From: Jiella endophytica
GTDB taxonomy: Bacteria > Pseudomonadota > Alphaproteobacteria > Rhizobiales > Rhizobiaceae
Length of the DNA: 64,000 nt
Assembly (NCBI RefSeq): GCF_004519335.1
Contig: NZ_SOZD01000012.1
Location: 1 to 64,000 of the forward strand
Direction: 5' to 3'
Shown here in pieces: positions 20,495 through 33,847 of this stretch; position 1 is the stretch's first letter, and each line of letters starts with the position of its first letter. The notes under the pieces were generated by a model that had not been told where the DNA came from, did not search any database, and saw only the letters and a list, made by a program, of their open reading frames with translations. A program made the position numbers and the translations under genes.

Positions 20495-20734
20495 ATGAAA
20501 GACGGGATCGTGGTGCTGGCAGAATGGGACGAGGAGGCTGGCGTCTGGGTGGCCAGCAGCGAAGACGTCTGCGGCCTCTCCGTTGAGTCCGAGAGTCTGG
20601 ACCTTCTGCAAGCGAAGGTGCTCGGCGCATTGCAGGATCTCGTCGAACTCAACGGCCTGCGCTACGACGGGCCCAGCATTCCGGTTCATATCAGGACCGA
20701 GTTCTCGGCAAGCGTTTCCAATCCACGGCATTGA
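20495..20734 (+). CDS. HicB-like antitoxin, DUF1902 type
   Basis: A 79-residue protein with the DUF1902/HicB fold start: IVVLAEWDEEAGVWVASSED, then GLSVESESLDLLQAKVLGAL. These small alpha-beta proteins act as antitoxins for HicA mRNA interferases. A HicA-like gene follows 3 bases downstream, giving an antitoxin-first order. ATG 20495 is chosen; ATG 20465 would add ten residues. The pair lies between nasS and the nrtA leader, with its own short non-coding flank. Confidence 0.82.
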   Translation: MKDGIVVLAEWDEEAGVWVASSEDVCGLSVESESLDLLQAKVLGALQDLVELNGLRYDGPSIPVHIRTEFSASVSNPRH

Positions 20735-20737
20735 TCC

Positions 20738-20932
20738 GTGCCAGGGTTCACGCGCGAACTCAAAGAACTCCTCTCGGCCGCCGGATGCCGTTTCCACCGG
20801 CAGGGCAGAGGAGATCACGAGATTTGGTACAGCCCGATAACCGACCGATACTTTACGGTCGATTCGAACATCAAATCCCGGCACACCGCGAACCAATCAC
20901 TCAAGGACGCGGGCCTGCCGAAAAAGTTCTGA
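20738..20932 (+). CDS. HicA-like mRNA interferase toxin
   Basis: A 64-residue protein with the double-stranded-RNA-binding-like HicA fold: ELKELLSAAGCRFHRQGRGDHEIW, with conserved His 27 in the GDHEIW segment, the catalytic position in HicA, and the closing basic helix IKSRHTANQSLKDAGLPKKF. Starts at GTG 20738, 3 bases after the antitoxin stop. HicA cleaves mRNA in a translation-independent way; activity here is inferred from intact motifs. Confidence 0.85.
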   Translation: MPGFTRELKELLSAAGCRFHRQGRGDHEIWYSPITDRYFTVDSNIKSRHTANQSLKDAGLPKKF

Positions 20933-21237
20933 CGTATTCCATGCCGCGTCCGCACAGCCATGCGGAAAAGGCAGCCTGGAGTCTCCTGTGAGACGACAGG
21001 CCAGTCTGATGGGCCCGAGCGGCTGCGCAGCTTGCTCCTCGGATTATCGTCCACCCCACGGGCAGATGCTCACGCCGTCAGCAAAACGGTTGCATAGAAC
21101 ATCTTCAATCTGTCTATTGTTTGTGCAGAATTCCGCTTCGCTTAAAAATCCTGCGAAAACAACGTTTCTCGCATTGCACCATGCCACGAGCTGTTCTAAA
21201 GAAACACTCTAGGCGGTCGTGACCGCCTGAAAGTTTC

Positions 21238-21273
21238 GACGTCCAAAGGCGGGCGTCACTGGCAAGGCTGCCG
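21238..21273 (+). promoter_or_regulatory. Tandem hexaloop hairpins, predicted NasT-binding RNA
   Basis: P1 spans 21238-21257: a 7-bp stem closing the loop AAAGGC (21245-21250). P2 spans 21260-21273: a short stem closing the loop AAGGCT (21264-21269). Both six-base loops have A at position 1 and G at position 4, the signature of ANTAR-protein targets. P2 uses the same bases as the 5' arm of the following terminator, so the two folds exclude each other. Confidence 0.8.
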
Positions 21274-21334
21274 ACACTTCTTTGTAACGCCACAGCGTAA
21301 GACGCGTGGCGGGAAGCGTCGGGCAGCCTTTTTT
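21264..21334 (+). terminator. Leader terminator controlling nrtABC
   Basis: AAGGCTGCCGAC at 21264-21275 pairs with GTCGGGCAGCCTT at 21318-21330 (one bulge), followed by six T residues at 21329-21334. An inner stem CGCCAC/GTGGCG lies in the loop. It is 62 bases before the nrtA start, so it would stop transcription unless the overlapping P2 hairpin is stabilised. Confidence 0.85.
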
Positions 21335-21395
21335 GTTTCCAAAAACAGATCAGCCGGCGGTAACCCCGCTCCGGGCAACGGGAGAGCTTTTGTTC

Positions 21396-22775
21396 ATGCC
21401 CATGGTGACTTCGATAACCCGACGTTTCTTCCTGGGAGCAACGCTCGCCGGCGCCGCCTTTGCCTGGCAGCCGGCCGGCGCCGAGATGCTGATCCCGGAA
21501 AAGGACGAATTGAAATTCGGCTTCATCAAGCTGACCGACATGGCGCCGCTCGCCATCGCCAAGGAGAAGCACTTCTTCGAGGACGAGGGGCTCTATGTCA
21601 CGCTGGAGCCCCAGGCGAACTGGAAGGTGCTGCTCGACCGGGTGATCACCGGCGAGCTCGACGGCGCCCACATGCTGGCCGGCCAGCCACTTGCGGCGAC
21701 CATCGGCTTCGGCACCAAGGCCCACATCGTCACGCCCTTCTCGATGGACCTCAACGGCAACGGCATCACCGTGTCGAATGCCGTCTGGGAGGAGATGAAG
21801 AAGGCCATTCCGACAAATGCCGACGGCATGCCCCAGCACCCGATCCCGGCCTCGGCGCTGAAGCCGGTGGTGGAGCAGTATCGGGCGGCCGGCAAGCCGT
21901 TCAACATGGGTATGGTGTTCCCGGTCTCGACCCACAATTACGAGCTGCGCTACTGGCTCGCCGCCGGCGGGCTCAATCCCGGCTTCTACACGCCGACCGA
22001 CACGTCCGGTCAGGTCAAGGCCGACGTGCTTCTCTCGGTGACGCCGCCGCCGCAGATGCCGGCGACGCTCGAGGCCGGCACCATCCAGGGCTACTGCGTC
22101 GGCGAGCCTTGGAACCAGGCGGCGGTGTTCAAGGGCATCGGCGTTCCGGTGATCACCGACTACGAGATCTGGAAAGACAATCCCGAAAAGGTCTTCGGGA
22201 TGACGGCGAAGTTCGTCGAGGAGAATCCCGAGACGGCCGTCGCCGTCACCAAGGCGCTGATCCGCGCCGGCAAGTGGCTCGACGAGAGCCCGGAAAACCG
22301 CAAGGAAGCCGTCGAGATCCTGTCGCGGCCCGAATATGTCGGCGCCGACGCCGAGGTGATCGCCAATTCGATGACCGGCACCTTCGAATACGAGAAGGGC
22401 GACAAGCGCGAGGTCCCGGACTTCAACGTCTTCTTCCGCTACTTCGCCACCTATCCCTATTATTCCGACGCGGTCTGGTATCTCACCCAGATGCGCCGCT
22501 GGGGACAGATCTCCGAGGAAAAGCCGGACGAGTGGTATGCCGAGACGGCGAAGAGCGTCTACCGGCCGGACATCTACAGGACGGCCGCCGCTTCGCTGAT
22601 CGACGACGGCCTCCTCGAAGCGTCCGACATTCCCGAGACCGACGGCTACAAGCCGGCGACCGACGCCTTCATCGACCATGTCGAATACGACGGCCGCAAG
22701 CCCAACGCCTATCTCGAGAAGTTCTCGATCGGCCTGAAGGGCAAGGAAGACGTCGCCTCGCTCGCCTCGAACTGA
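21396..22775 (+). CDS. nrtA: Nitrate ABC transporter substrate-binding protein NrtA
   Basis: Periplasmic nitrate-binding protein of 459 residues. The N-terminus [19 protein letters not shown] is a twin-arginine signal peptide, so export is by Tat after folding. Family blocks include [47 protein letters not shown] and [13 protein letters not shown], matching those of NasS. Start ATG 21396 has GGGAGAG upstream; ATG 21402 is a close alternative. It is the first gene after the NasT-type leader and heads the nrtABC operon. Confidence 0.95.
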
Positions 22776-25835: not shown

Positions 25836-26141
25836 CTATTCGGCCGCCTGCTTGCGGGCAATGAACTCGCGCAAGGCATCGTTGAGATGGCGCTGCCAAT
25901 CGTCGCCGAATTCACGCTTGAAATGGTCGGCGACGTCGAATTCGATCTCCGCCATGAAAAACCGGCGGGGCGGCGCCGTGACCGGCTCGAAGAACGACGG
26001 CGGCATCACCTCGCGCGCCGGACGCATGCGGGCCCAGTCCTCGTCGGTCAGCGGCGGATTGTCGGGATCGGACAGGGCAGCCGCGGTAATGGCGGCGTCT
26101 TCGTCGTCACTGATCGGCTCTGTCAGCCATGGCTTTTTCAT
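25836..26141 (-). CDS. BrnA-type antitoxin, module 1
   Basis: A 101-residue antitoxin with an N-terminal flexible part (DDEDAAITAAALSDPDNPPL) and a C-terminal ribbon-helix-helix-like domain (AEIEFDVADHFKREFGDDWQ then LNDALREFIARKQ). BrnA neutralises BrnT and represses the operon. ATG 26141 has AGAGGC just upstream; it starts 35 bases inside the toxin gene, giving coupled translation. It is very similar to module 2, especially the EDAAITAAALSDPDNPPLTD block. Confidence 0.85.
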   Translation of the reverse strand: MKKPWLTEPISDDEDAAITAAALSDPDNPPLTDEDWARMRPAREVMPPSFFEPVTAPPRRFFMAEIEFDVADHFKREFGDDWQRHLNDALREFIARKQAAE

Positions 26142-26421
26142 AGACAAGCCTCTCGCGTTTGTTGGCCTTGCGCAAACTTATGACCCGAATGATCGTCGTT
26201 CCAGCCATCGCGCCGATACGGCGGGCGTAGACGAGAACATGGAGGCGTCCGCCGATCGGGCCCGTCGCGATAAACCTCTCTTCGCCATAGTTGAATCTCG
26301 TATCCGGCTGAATGATCGCGTTGTTTCGATCCAGCGATGGCGCGGTCGTGAAATCGATCCCATGCTTGGCGATGTTCATGAGACGCTTGGTTTCGTCCCA
26401 AGCGTAAACGTCGCCGCCCAT
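26107..26421 (-). CDS. BrnT-family ribonuclease toxin, module 1
   Basis: A 104-residue BrnT toxin. The family opening is AWDETKRLMNIAKHGIDFTTAPSL, followed by GEERFIATGPIGGRLHVLVYARR and the C-terminal VISLRKANKRERLVYE, which carries conserved Arg residues. BrnT cleaves RNA and halts growth unless bound by BrnA. The segment RRIGAMAGTTIIRV is longer than the matching part of module 2. It is upstream of its antitoxin, the standard brnTA order, and on the strand opposite to the nitrate genes. Confidence 0.87.
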   Translation of the reverse strand: MGGDVYAWDETKRLMNIAKHGIDFTTAPSLDRNNAIIQPDTRFNYGEERFIATGPIGGRLHVLVYARRIGAMAGTTIIRVISLRKANKRERLVYEKAMADRADQ

Positions 26422-26510
26422 TGCGCCAATCCCCCTAGCCGCCCGACTCCCCCGGAGAGAATTCTAGAAGTTTACAATTTAAAGGTCACGAATAACCAGA
26501 ACGACGTGTC

Positions 26511-26807
26511 CTACTCAGCGGCCTCGTCCTTGCGCTCCGTCGCAGCGCGCAGGACGTCGCGCATCTCCTCCTCCCAGTCGGGACCGAATTTTTCCTTGAA
26601 ATGCGCGACGACCTCGTCGGCGACGAAGACGGCCTTCGTCCCGGTGAGCTTTTCGAACAGCTCGCGGGGCATCACGTCGCGGGCCGGCCGCATCTGCTCC
26701 AATTCCTCGTCGGTGAGCGGCGGATTGTCGGGGTCGGAGAGCGCCGCCGCGGTGATGGCGGCGTCCTCCTCAGGGGTCGGATGGATTAGCGGACGTCTTC
26801 TTCTCAT
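26511..26807 (-). CDS. BrnA-type antitoxin, module 2
   Basis: A 98-residue antitoxin, paralogue of module 1: EEDAAITAAALSDPDNPPLT, then MRPARDVMPRELFEKLTG and the DNA-binding half VVAHFKEKFGPDWEEEMRDV. Start ATG 26807 has GAGGT 8 bases upstream and aligns with the module 1 start; a longer frame from 26828 exists. It overlaps the toxin gene by 38 bases. Confidence 0.85.
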   Translation of the reverse strand: MRRRRPLIHPTPEEDAAITAAALSDPDNPPLTDEELEQMRPARDVMPRELFEKLTGTKAVFVADEVVAHFKEKFGPDWEEEMRDVLRAATERKDEAAE

Positions 26808-27063
26808 AACGCAAGACCTCGCGTTCATTCGCCTTTCTGAGACTTATAACCCGGACCGCATCGCCCCGGTAGGTGAAGACCATGACGTAGAGCCGGTCGT
26901 CGATCGGTGCCTTGGCCTGAAAACGCTCTTCTCCATAGGCATGTCTGACATCGGCCTCGATGTCCGCCGTCTTGAGGTCGAAACGCCGTGCCAGCGCGAA
27001 GTCGACCCCATGCTTGGCGAGATTGCCGGCGCGCTTGTGATCGTCCCACTCGAACTCGGCCAT
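26770..27063 (-). CDS. BrnT-family ribonuclease toxin, module 2
   Basis: A 97-residue BrnT protein with the canonical start FEWDDHKRAGNLAKHGVDFA, central GEERFQAKAPIDDRLYVMVF and C-terminal RVISLRKANEREVLRYEKK. All segments seen in active BrnT proteins are intact. It lies 113 bases upstream of, and divergent from, the GAF-nirB operon, so its promoter region is shared with that operon. Confidence 0.87.
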   Translation of the reverse strand: MAEFEWDDHKRAGNLAKHGVDFALARRFDLKTADIEADVRHAYGEERFQAKAPIDDRLYVMVFTYRGDAVRVISLRKANEREVLRYEKKTSANPSDP

Positions 27064-31969: not shown

Positions 31970-33847
31970 ATGACCCAGCCCCTGCTCCGCTCCTCCAAGG
32001 AGATCTTCCCGCGGCCCGGAAGGGCCCCGGGCGAGACGGGCAGGCCCGGGCCAGGCAGGGCGGCCGGCGGCGACATCCGCGACAGGGACGCCGGCAACGA
32101 GACGGCGGGCGACCTCGCCGTATCGCTGGGCGGCTGCTCCGAGGCCGGCCGCAAGCCGGCCAATCAGGACTTCTTCGGCGCCATCGTCCCACGCCCCCCA
32201 GCCCTCGGGCTGAAGGGCATCGCCGTCGCCATCGCCGACGGCATCTCGTCCTCCGATGTCGGGCGCGTCGCCGCCGAAACGGCGGTGAAGAGCTTCCTCA
32301 CCGACTATTACTGCACCTCCGACGCCTGGAGCGTCCGTCACGCTGCCGGCCACGTCATCGCCGCGACCAACGCCTGGCTTCACGGCGAAAGCCGCCGCGC
32401 CGCCCGGACCGCCGCTTCCCATGAGGGCGCCGACCCCGACCAGGGCTTCGTCACCACCTTCAGCGCGCTGGTCCTCAAGGGACGCACGGCCCATTGCCTG
32501 CATGTCGGCGACACCCGCATCAGCCGGCTGACGCCTGACGGGATCGAGGCACTGACCGAAGATCATCGGCTGGTCCTCTCCTCCAGCGAGAACTATCTCG
32601 CCCGCGCCCTCGGCATGGAGCCCCATATCGAGATCGACTATCGCGCGCTGCCGGTTCGCGAGGGCGACGTCTTTCTTTTGACCAGCGACGGCGTCCACGA
32701 GCACCTTGCGCCAGCCGAGCTCCTGCGCATCGTCCGGCTCGGCGAAAACGACCTCGACAAGGCGGCGAAGGCGATCACGGCGGCGGCTCTGGAAAAGGGC
32801 AGCCCCGACAATCTCACGGTCCAGATCCTCCGCGTCGACCAGCTGCCCGCGACCGCCGACGAGTGGCTCGACGGCGCCGATCTCGAGCCGCCGGCTCGGA
32901 TGCCGGAGGAGGGGACGGTCTTCGACGGCTGGGTGCTGGAGCGCCGGCTGCATGTCGGCCCGCGCAGCCACGTCTTTGCCGCCCGCGATGCCGAAACCGG
33001 CGAGGCCGCGGCGCTGAAATTTCTCGCCTCCGACCTTTCCGGCGATGCCGGCGCCCGCCGCGCTTTCCTGATGGAGGAGTGGATCGCCGCGCGGCTGGCC
33101 AATCCGCACTGCCTGAAGGCTCTTCCGCGGCGGCGGCCGCGCGCCGCCCTCTACACCGCCATGCAGCTGGTCGAGGGCCGCACGCTGCGCGCGGTGCTGG
33201 GCGAGACGCCGCGGATGCATCTTGCCGAGGTGCAGCGGATCGTCCGCGAGGCGGCGGCGGGGCTGCAAGCGATGCATCGCAAGGACATGGTGCATCAGGA
33301 TCTTCGCCCGGAAAACCTGATGCTCGGCCGTGACGGCCACGTCACGCTGATCGATTTTGGCGCGGCAAGGGTTGCCGGCGTCGAGGAGGCCCGGCCCTTC
33401 GTCGCCGACACGCTGCCTGCCGGCGCCCTGCAGTTCGCGGCGCCGGAACAGCTTCGCAGCGAGGTCGGCCGGGTGCGCTCGGACGTCTTCTCCCTCGGGG
33501 TGCTGGCCTATCACCTCCTGACCGGCCGGCTGCCCTATGGCGCGGCGCTCGCCCGCAGCCGCACGACCCGTGAGCAGCGCGGCCTCGTCTACGAGACCGC
33601 GGCAAGCGAAGACGTCGCCGTCCCCGAATGGGTCGAGGGCGCGCTGAAGAAGGCCGTCGCCATCGATCCCGGCCGCCGCTACGCCGAGGTCGCAGAATTC
33701 GTTCACGACCTCACGCGGCCGAACCCCGATTTCGTCGGTCGCGAGCGCCAGCCGCTGGCCGTGAGGGATCCCGTCCGCTTCTGGCAGGCGGTCTCCGCCG
33801 TCCTCGCTTTCACCGTCGTCGCGCTGCTCGCCATGATCGCGACCTGA
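31970..33847 (+). CDS. Membrane-anchored PP2C phosphatase-Ser/Thr kinase fusion
   Basis: A 625-residue bifunctional signalling protein. The N-terminal half (about 50-290) is a PP2C phosphatase with metal-binding motifs ANQDFF, ADGISSS, SDGVHEH and SPDNLTV. The second half (about 310-580) is a Hanks-type kinase with the Lys in AALKFL, catalytic loop HQDLRPENLM and DFGAA. One C-terminal membrane helix (FWQAVSAVLAFTVVALLAMI) anchors it. Such fusions recur beside bacterial nitrate assimilation genes, but substrates are unknown. It follows the FNT gene by 30 bases. Confidence 0.9.
   Translation: MTQPLLRSSKEIFPRPGRAPGETGRPGPGRAAGGDIRDRDAGNETAGDLAVSLGGCSEAGRKPANQDFFGAIVPRPPALGLKGIAVAIADGISSSDVGRVAAETAVKSFLTDYYCTSDAWSVRHAAGHVIAATNAWLHGESRRAARTAASHEGADPDQGFVTTFSALVLKGRTAHCLHVGDTRISRLTPDGIEALTEDHRLVLSSSENYLARALGMEPHIEIDYRALPVREGDVFLLTSDGVHEHLAPAELLRIVRLGENDLDKAAKAITAAALEKGSPDNLTVQILRVDQLPATADEWLDGADLEPPARMPEEGTVFDGWVLERRLHVGPRSHVFAARDAETGEAAALKFLASDLSGDAGARRAFLMEEWIAARLANPHCLKALPRRRPRAALYTAMQLVEGRTLRAVLGETPRMHLAEVQRIVREAAAGLQAMHRKDMVHQDLRPENLMLGRDGHVTLIDFGAARVAGVEEARPFVADTLPAGALQFAAPEQLRSEVGRVRSDVFSLGVLAYHLLTGRLPYGAALARSRTTREQRGLVYETAASEDVAVPEWVEGALKKAVAIDPGRRYAEVAEFVHDLTRPNPDFVGRERQPLAVRDPVRFWQAVSAVLAFTVVALLAMIAT

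Follow-up and report, generated by a model that had tools for sequence, protein, structure and literature searches.

We asked whether the DNA ahead of the transporter genes nrtABC in a 64,000-nucleotide stretch of the Jiella endophytica genome (hereafter the window) encodes an RNA that couples their transcription to nitrate. A first-pass annotation had read positions 21238-21334 as a complete NasT-type antitermination leader, in which two adjacent hairpins with A1/G4 six-base loops, P1 and P2, precede an intrinsic terminator that reuses part of P2. Direct reading of the sequence found both hairpins where they had been placed (Table 1). P1 (GACGTCC-AAAGGC-GGGCGTC) has seven pairs and P2 (TGGC-AAGGCT-GCCG) has four, one of them U-G in each case; both loops carry A1 and G4, and 2 nt separate the hairpins. 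The terminator stem pairs AAGGCUGCC (21264-21272) with GGCAGCCUU (21322-21330), plus inner pairs. Its 5' arm begins at base 1 of the P2 loop and shares the P2 loop and 3' arm, and two of its six T residues lie inside the stem, so that the proposed overlap of P2 and terminator was borne out. The word "complete" held for P1, P2 and the terminator; the interval as annotated leaves out a probable promoter and a genus-level hairpin, P0, both described below.

Table 1. Coordinates of the leader elements and of the genes around them in the window.
Feature	Start	End	Strand	Evidence or remark
nasT, receiver + ANTAR RNA-binding domain, 196 aa	18617	19207	+	Pfam ANTAR 67.5 bits, Response_reg 36.7 bits
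nasS, NrtA-like, expected nitrate/nitrite sensor, 374 aa	19207	20331	+	Pfam NMT1_2 231 bits
Probable promoter TTGCAC-17-TAAAGA	21174	21202	+	Clade pattern TTGC[AG][AC]-17-TANNNN
P0, extra 5' hairpin, conserved in genus as far as tested	21211	21228	+	AGGCGGTC-GT-GACCGCCT
P1 hairpin, loop AAAGGC	21238	21257	+	Sequence read, motif scan, covariation
P2 hairpin, loop AAGGCT (antiterminator, exclusive with terminator)	21260	21273	+	Sequence, scan, covariation, folding
Intrinsic terminator, T run 21329-21334	21264	21334	+	Folding and motif scan
nrtA, nitrate ABC transporter substrate-binding protein	21396	22775	+	Pfam NMT1_2 327.5 bits
nrtB, permease	22854	23948	+	Pfam BPD_transp_1; NCBIfam TIGR01183 161.5 bits, below cut-off 209.05
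nrtC, ATPase, two ABC domains in one chain	23945	25780	+	TIGR01184 591.6 bits, cut-off 291.8

The genes on both sides of the leader were then assigned from their domains. nasT and nasS lie upstream, as annotated, and the distance of 2 kb given for them can be refined: nasS ends ~0.9 kb and nasT starts 2.6 kb before the leader, the nasS start overlapping the nasT stop (TGATG). NasS shares 36% identity with the NrtA of the window (residues 31-398) and has no N-terminal export signal visible by eye; the N-terminus of NrtA carries what we take, from the motif seen by eye, to be a Tat signal. TIGR01183 (nitrate permease) is the best NCBIfam match of nrtB, and both ABC domains of nrtC match TIGR01184 (nitrate ABC transporter ATP-binding protein) in two stretches, making nrtC the only one of the three genes that passes an NCBIfam nitrate-transport cut-off. 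Because no NCBIfam model exceeds its cut-off for nrtA, the label "nitrate" for this gene is taken from nrtB, nrtC and the surrounding cluster. The closest named matches of nrtA come from Aurantimonas sp. 22II-16-19i (88%) and Aurantimonas sp. VKM B-3413 (87%), in a list that may omit the window's own genome; this suggests the label Aurantimonas-like for the window's clade.

Folding agrees with mutually exclusive structures. The 131 nt from 21220 to 21350 fold at -59 kcal/mol (z -4.8), and none of 200 shuffles folded as low. When the transcript was lengthened in 4-base steps, P2, in a form with a 4-base loop, was part of the minimum-energy fold for ends from 21274 to 21322, and from 21326 onward the terminator displaced it. 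Forcing P1-P2 in the leader gave -54.7 versus -66.6 kcal/mol; this cost of ~12 kcal/mol implies that P1-P2 would have to be held in place by a protein. The 4-base loop arises in RNAfold from an extra A1-U6 pair (-5.2 kcal/mol, versus -3.7 as a hexaloop). This pair is not general, since loop position 6 varies among 41 relatives (T in 23, C in 15, another base in 3). A generic terminator scan limited to loops of 3-8 listed only P2 at the leader and not the terminator. Rfam at gathering threshold returned only 5S rRNA across the whole window and nothing in the leader; at E up to 10, the region 21000-21500 gave four sub-threshold, chance-level matches, such as c-di-GMP-I-GGC with 17 versus 59 bits.

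To judge chance, we fixed a strict motif from the ANTAR literature, namely P1 and P2 with A1/G4 hexaloops, at most 12 nt apart, and an overlapping terminator. In each of 56 genomes, including the window's own, the scanned region ran from at most 420 bases ahead of the nrtA match start to 30 bases past it; these leader counts leave out L029-L031 (NasS/NrtA-like matches, ~39-40% identity) and L002 (nasS). The strict motif was present in 35 of 56 nrtA upstream regions and in 1 of 2240 dinucleotide shuffles, and a dual hexaloop with or without terminator in 5 of the 2240 shuffled leaders. P1 and P2 were 0-10 nt apart in the 35 leaders that passed. Over the 64 kb of the window the scan found two dual-hexaloop pairs on the plus strand, only one of them, the nrtA leader, with a terminator, and none on the minus strand. 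Loci from named genomes, a set that partly overlaps the 56, carried the strict motif in 29 of 80 cases. Another search, which required P1 A1 and both G4 and merely favoured A1 in P2, had P2 A1 in 38 of its 41 picks; these picks include L010, with a degenerate P2 and no terminator found, and L037. Chance is therefore a poor explanation for the leader motif.

The first-pass annotation had proposed a covariance check in relatives, and this came out in its favour. In an alignment of 40 leaders (L010 excluded, P1 of L037 re-parsed by hand), 44 paired cells were changed on both sides compared with 11.1 in shuffled alignments, and the covariation score was 0.385 compared with 0.161; none of 500 shuffles was as high in either measure. 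Paired cells made up 94.5% versus 82.8% (again 0 of 500 as high), a fraction that is biased upward because the sequences were chosen for pairing. Counted by position, 5 of the 10 base pairs had changes in both partners, which is not above the level of shuffles (a mean of 4.0, with 111 of 500 shuffles reaching 5 or more). Together with the two adjacent A1/G4 hexaloops, the P2-terminator overlap and the short spacing, these paired changes make up the dual-hexaloop architecture that had been ascribed to ANTAR proteins. The U-G wobble at the fifth position of P1 (21242/21253), adjoining the closing C-G pairs, is retained by 29 of the 40 leaders and is perhaps part of NasT recognition.

We next compared the motif with the presence of nasT in the 69 genomes whose nrtA match scored more than 640 bits. 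Twelve had no nasT match better than E 1e-10 and were taken as nasT-free; the remaining 57, taken as nasT-bearing, include one with a distant match (G270, 34% identity) and two with a match split over contigs (G097, G251). Of the 57 genomes with nasT, 35 carried the strict motif, as against none of the 12 without (Fisher p 6e-5, kinship ignored); the 12 are not independent, five belonging to one genus, and three (G110, G197, G282) are less than 85% complete. The 22 nasT-bearing genomes that fail the strict motif count against a universal rule. Six of the misses (L033, L034, L035, L040, L049, L057) are near misses by eye. In four other leaders with nasT present (L044, L046, L048, L051; family f18, genus g167), a P2-like hairpin and the terminator are kept and the A1/G4 loop of P1 is seemingly lost, judged by eye; these may represent a single-hexaloop variant.

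These counts bear on the idea that the leader is an ordinary constitutive attenuator or terminator whose A1/G4 loops arose by chance and that no protein controls. The terminator is indeed far more stable than P1-P2, and the 22 misses would fit such an element. However, such an element would not account for a motif that is so rare in shuffles, for covariation in a hairpin, P1, that is not part of the terminator, or for the absence of the motif from all 12 nasT-free genomes examined, and we think it can hardly be right.

Two covariance models were then used to look for the P1-P2 element on a larger scale: R1, a model of P1-P2, and R2, built from 17 leaders of other families only. In the window's own 5.25-Mb genome, R1 scored the nrtA leader at 45.7 bits and the next site at 19.1 (150 of 4294 first-look candidates scored), and R2 scored it at 38.6 bits (E 1.2e-5) and the next at 19.9 (150 of 4074). 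Both models thus recover the leader as one strong site, and further NasT targets in this genome appeared as nothing stronger than these next-best matches among the scored candidates; a weaker second site could be missed because 150 of ~4000 candidates were scored per model. Over the 64-kb window, R1 gave no match above 16 bits besides the leader. With stricter filters, R1 matched 21 of 61 family genomes at E ≤0.01, with one site in each, and 10 of the 21 were absent from its training sequences. All 21 matches adjoin a NasS/NrtA-like gene on the same strand, compared by eye.

Which protein reads the hairpins is a separate question, since the genome encodes four ANTAR domains above cut-off. The three outside NasT (32.7-40.6 bits) are encoded elsewhere in the genome, and the hairpins could in principle be bound by one of them instead. 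NasT, however, is encoded nearby and has the top score (70.1 bits), the motif tracks nasT across genomes, and the R1 matches in the family genomes all stand beside NasS/NrtA-like genes; recognition by another ANTAR protein is therefore very unlikely. NasT also aligns with EutV (6wsh), NasR (4akk) and other PDB entries. Excerpts of the EutV structure paper name RNA-contact residues that include Tyr164, Arg168, Met172, Asn173, Arg175 and Arg177 (PMC8934654). Five of these six are kept in NasT, as Y165, R169, M173, N174 and R178, and Arg175 is replaced by Asn176.

Taken together, the architecture, its conservation with paired changes, the neighbourhood, the co-occurrence with nasT and the largely preserved contact residues support a fit with the published ANTAR/NasT mechanism, and 21238-21334 very probably encodes an RNA switch of the NasS-NasT/ANTAR type that acts in cis on nrtABC. 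NasT binding, its release by nitrate and read-through would proceed here by analogy with work on Paracoccus denitrificans, Bradyrhizobium diazoefficiens and EutV. Without nitrate, NasS would hold NasT, and the nascent leader would pass through P1 and P2, after which the P2 loop and 3' arm would pair with 21322-21330, the terminator would form and transcription would stop ahead of nrtA. With nitrate or nitrite, NasS would let NasT go, and the ANTAR domain of free NasT would bind the P1 and P2 loops and keep P2 folded, so that the terminator would be blocked and nrtABC transcribed.

How NasT engages the two loops may differ from this scheme. In a variant of it, NasT would remodel the terminator via one hairpin, or would bind the two hexaloops successively rather than both at once. 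Excerpts of the EutV structure paper, in which a dimer is in contact with a single hexaloop at any one time (PMC8934654), and of the H1/H2/H3 model for nosR of B. diazoefficiens (PMC6712156) speak for it. The exclusivity of P1-P2 and terminator, on the other hand, directly matches the EutV scheme, and the sequence reads the same under either; we rate the variant as unlikely, with appreciable weight nonetheless, and otherwise keep to binding of both loops.

The switch proposed here resembles several known systems, as far as excerpts of the cited papers describe them. As at P. denitrificans nasA, nasT-nasS lie upstream of a nitrate operon, the leader hairpins lie between nasS and the first structural gene, and NasS is NrtA-like (PMC3795266, PMC5424462). 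Unlike that system, which controls nasABGHC, the first gene here is nrtA of an ABC nitrate transporter. In P. denitrificans, NasT binds the nasA leader (PMC3795266) and a chromosomal mutation of hairpin HI abolishes growth on nitrate; on glutamate, a full nas transcript is nevertheless made in the absence of nitrate, and an additional level of control, at translation, has been proposed (PMC5424462). B. diazoefficiens nosR and, by prediction, nirA provide NasT antitermination at a leader hairpin in another alphaproteobacterium (PMC6759348, PMC6712156). The NasT regulon there is described as dispersed, whereas our genome search gave one strong element. Two B. diazoefficiens genes with predicted NasT hairpins, narK and bjgb, go up in a nasT mutant (PMC6759348), and predicted hairpins are therefore no guarantee of positive control. 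The Enterococcus faecalis EutV RNA shares the A1/G4 hexaloops of P1 and P2 and a P2 exclusive with the terminator, but EutV is activated by phosphorylation and NasT by release from NasS (PMC3369931, PMC8934654); the window's P2, unlike that of the EutV RNA, can also close to a 4-base loop. In the Klebsiella nasF leader, NasR likewise provides nitrate-responsive ANTAR antitermination at an A1/G4 loop, as a one-protein sensor (NIT-ANTAR) in place of NasS plus NasT (PMC3369931). Mechanism and family are thus already known, and the nrtABC leader is a well-supported, ordinary family member. Among the papers listed in full-text searches, with few subscription journals covered, no title or abstract opening concerned the nrtA leader in the Aurantimonas group. 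The leader offers a clean, testable case in which NasT antitermination would act on an ABC nitrate transporter; it is accompanied by the 40-leader alignment and by a covariance model that gave a single site in each of the 21 family genomes it matched.

We also examined the region upstream of P1 for promoters. Sigma-54-like sites were defined as GG/GC-anchored matches of at least 9 of 12 lying between 90 and 360 bases ahead of the point where the nrtA match begins. They occurred in 32 of 50 other nasT-bearing genomes (3.1 expected by shuffle) and in 2 of 12 nasT-free genomes (0.4 expected), and in none of seven members of the window's clade (0.3 expected; p 0.002 versus the other nasT-bearing genomes). 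The 50 include L042, whose contig has 157 bases upstream, too few to show a site; the counts given below for the sigma-70-like pattern and for P0 exclude it, together with L010 and L037. For the window itself we rejected a sigma-54 promoter, the best GG/GC-anchored site upstream of nrtA reaching 7 of 12. NtrC acts at nasT in P. denitrificans, according to excerpts of the work on that organism; in the window, neither nasT nor nrtA has an upstream sigma-54-like site above 7 of 12.

A sigma-70-like pattern, TTGC[AG][AC]-17-TANNNN, is present in all eight clade members, 64-106 bases before P1 (0.04 expected by shuffle), and occurs once among 31 further leaders with the motif (0.35 expected); the eight are the seven of the sigma-54 count plus L108. 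Because the pattern was drawn from these same, related sequences before it was counted, the count has the weight of a strong lead and not of an independent test. The window's own candidate scores below the threshold of a generic promoter scan. From its position, transcription would start at ~21209-21211.

P0 sits at this expected start. Close relatives differ in its letters and keep its pairing, and alignment by eye shows paired changes in L003 and L108; this makes a DNA operator at the palindrome less likely. A P0 general to all leaders was unsupported by a count of contiguous pairs: 14 of 38 leaders had at least six pairs versus 10.2 expected, and control zones gave 12 versus 9.8 and 9 versus 10.5. 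The mean folding z was -0.98 in the P0 zone versus -0.16 in a control zone.

A tentative reading, which we hold with somewhat less than even confidence, is that in the window's clade (Aurantimonas-like Hyphomicrobiales) the sigma-54/NtrC-type promoter found ahead of the NasT leader in most of the nasT-bearing relatives compared was swapped for a sigma-70-like one, that antitermination became the main gate of nrtABC, that nitrogen-starvation control at this promoter was lost or moved, and that P0 is a hairpin added within the genus. The difference in promoter sites between the clade and the other nasT-bearing genomes is a side result that may be newer than the leader. It suggests that an RNA switch was kept while the promoter type changed, which would uncouple nitrate sensing from nitrogen-status sensing in evolution.

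Several other genes lie in or next to the nitrate cluster. Between nasS and the nrtA leader are a DUF1902 gene (20495-20734) and a HicA-toxin-family gene (20738-20932; 31.6 bits). The DUF1902 protein had no match in either of two same-genus genomes tested, and the two genes may therefore have been inserted recently; the leader 3' of them is intact. Downstream of nrtC, two BrnT-type toxin-antitoxin pairs occupy 25836-27063 on the minus strand (BrnT 76.1 and 78.8 bits, with a recognisable BrnA in one of the two pairs). They separate nrtC from both a GAF-domain gene and nirB, and because they intervene, nirB and nasA may form a separate transcription unit. Also in the nitrate cluster, a 625-aa frame at 31970-33847 resembles, by eye, a fusion of a PP2C phosphatase with a Ser/Thr kinase.
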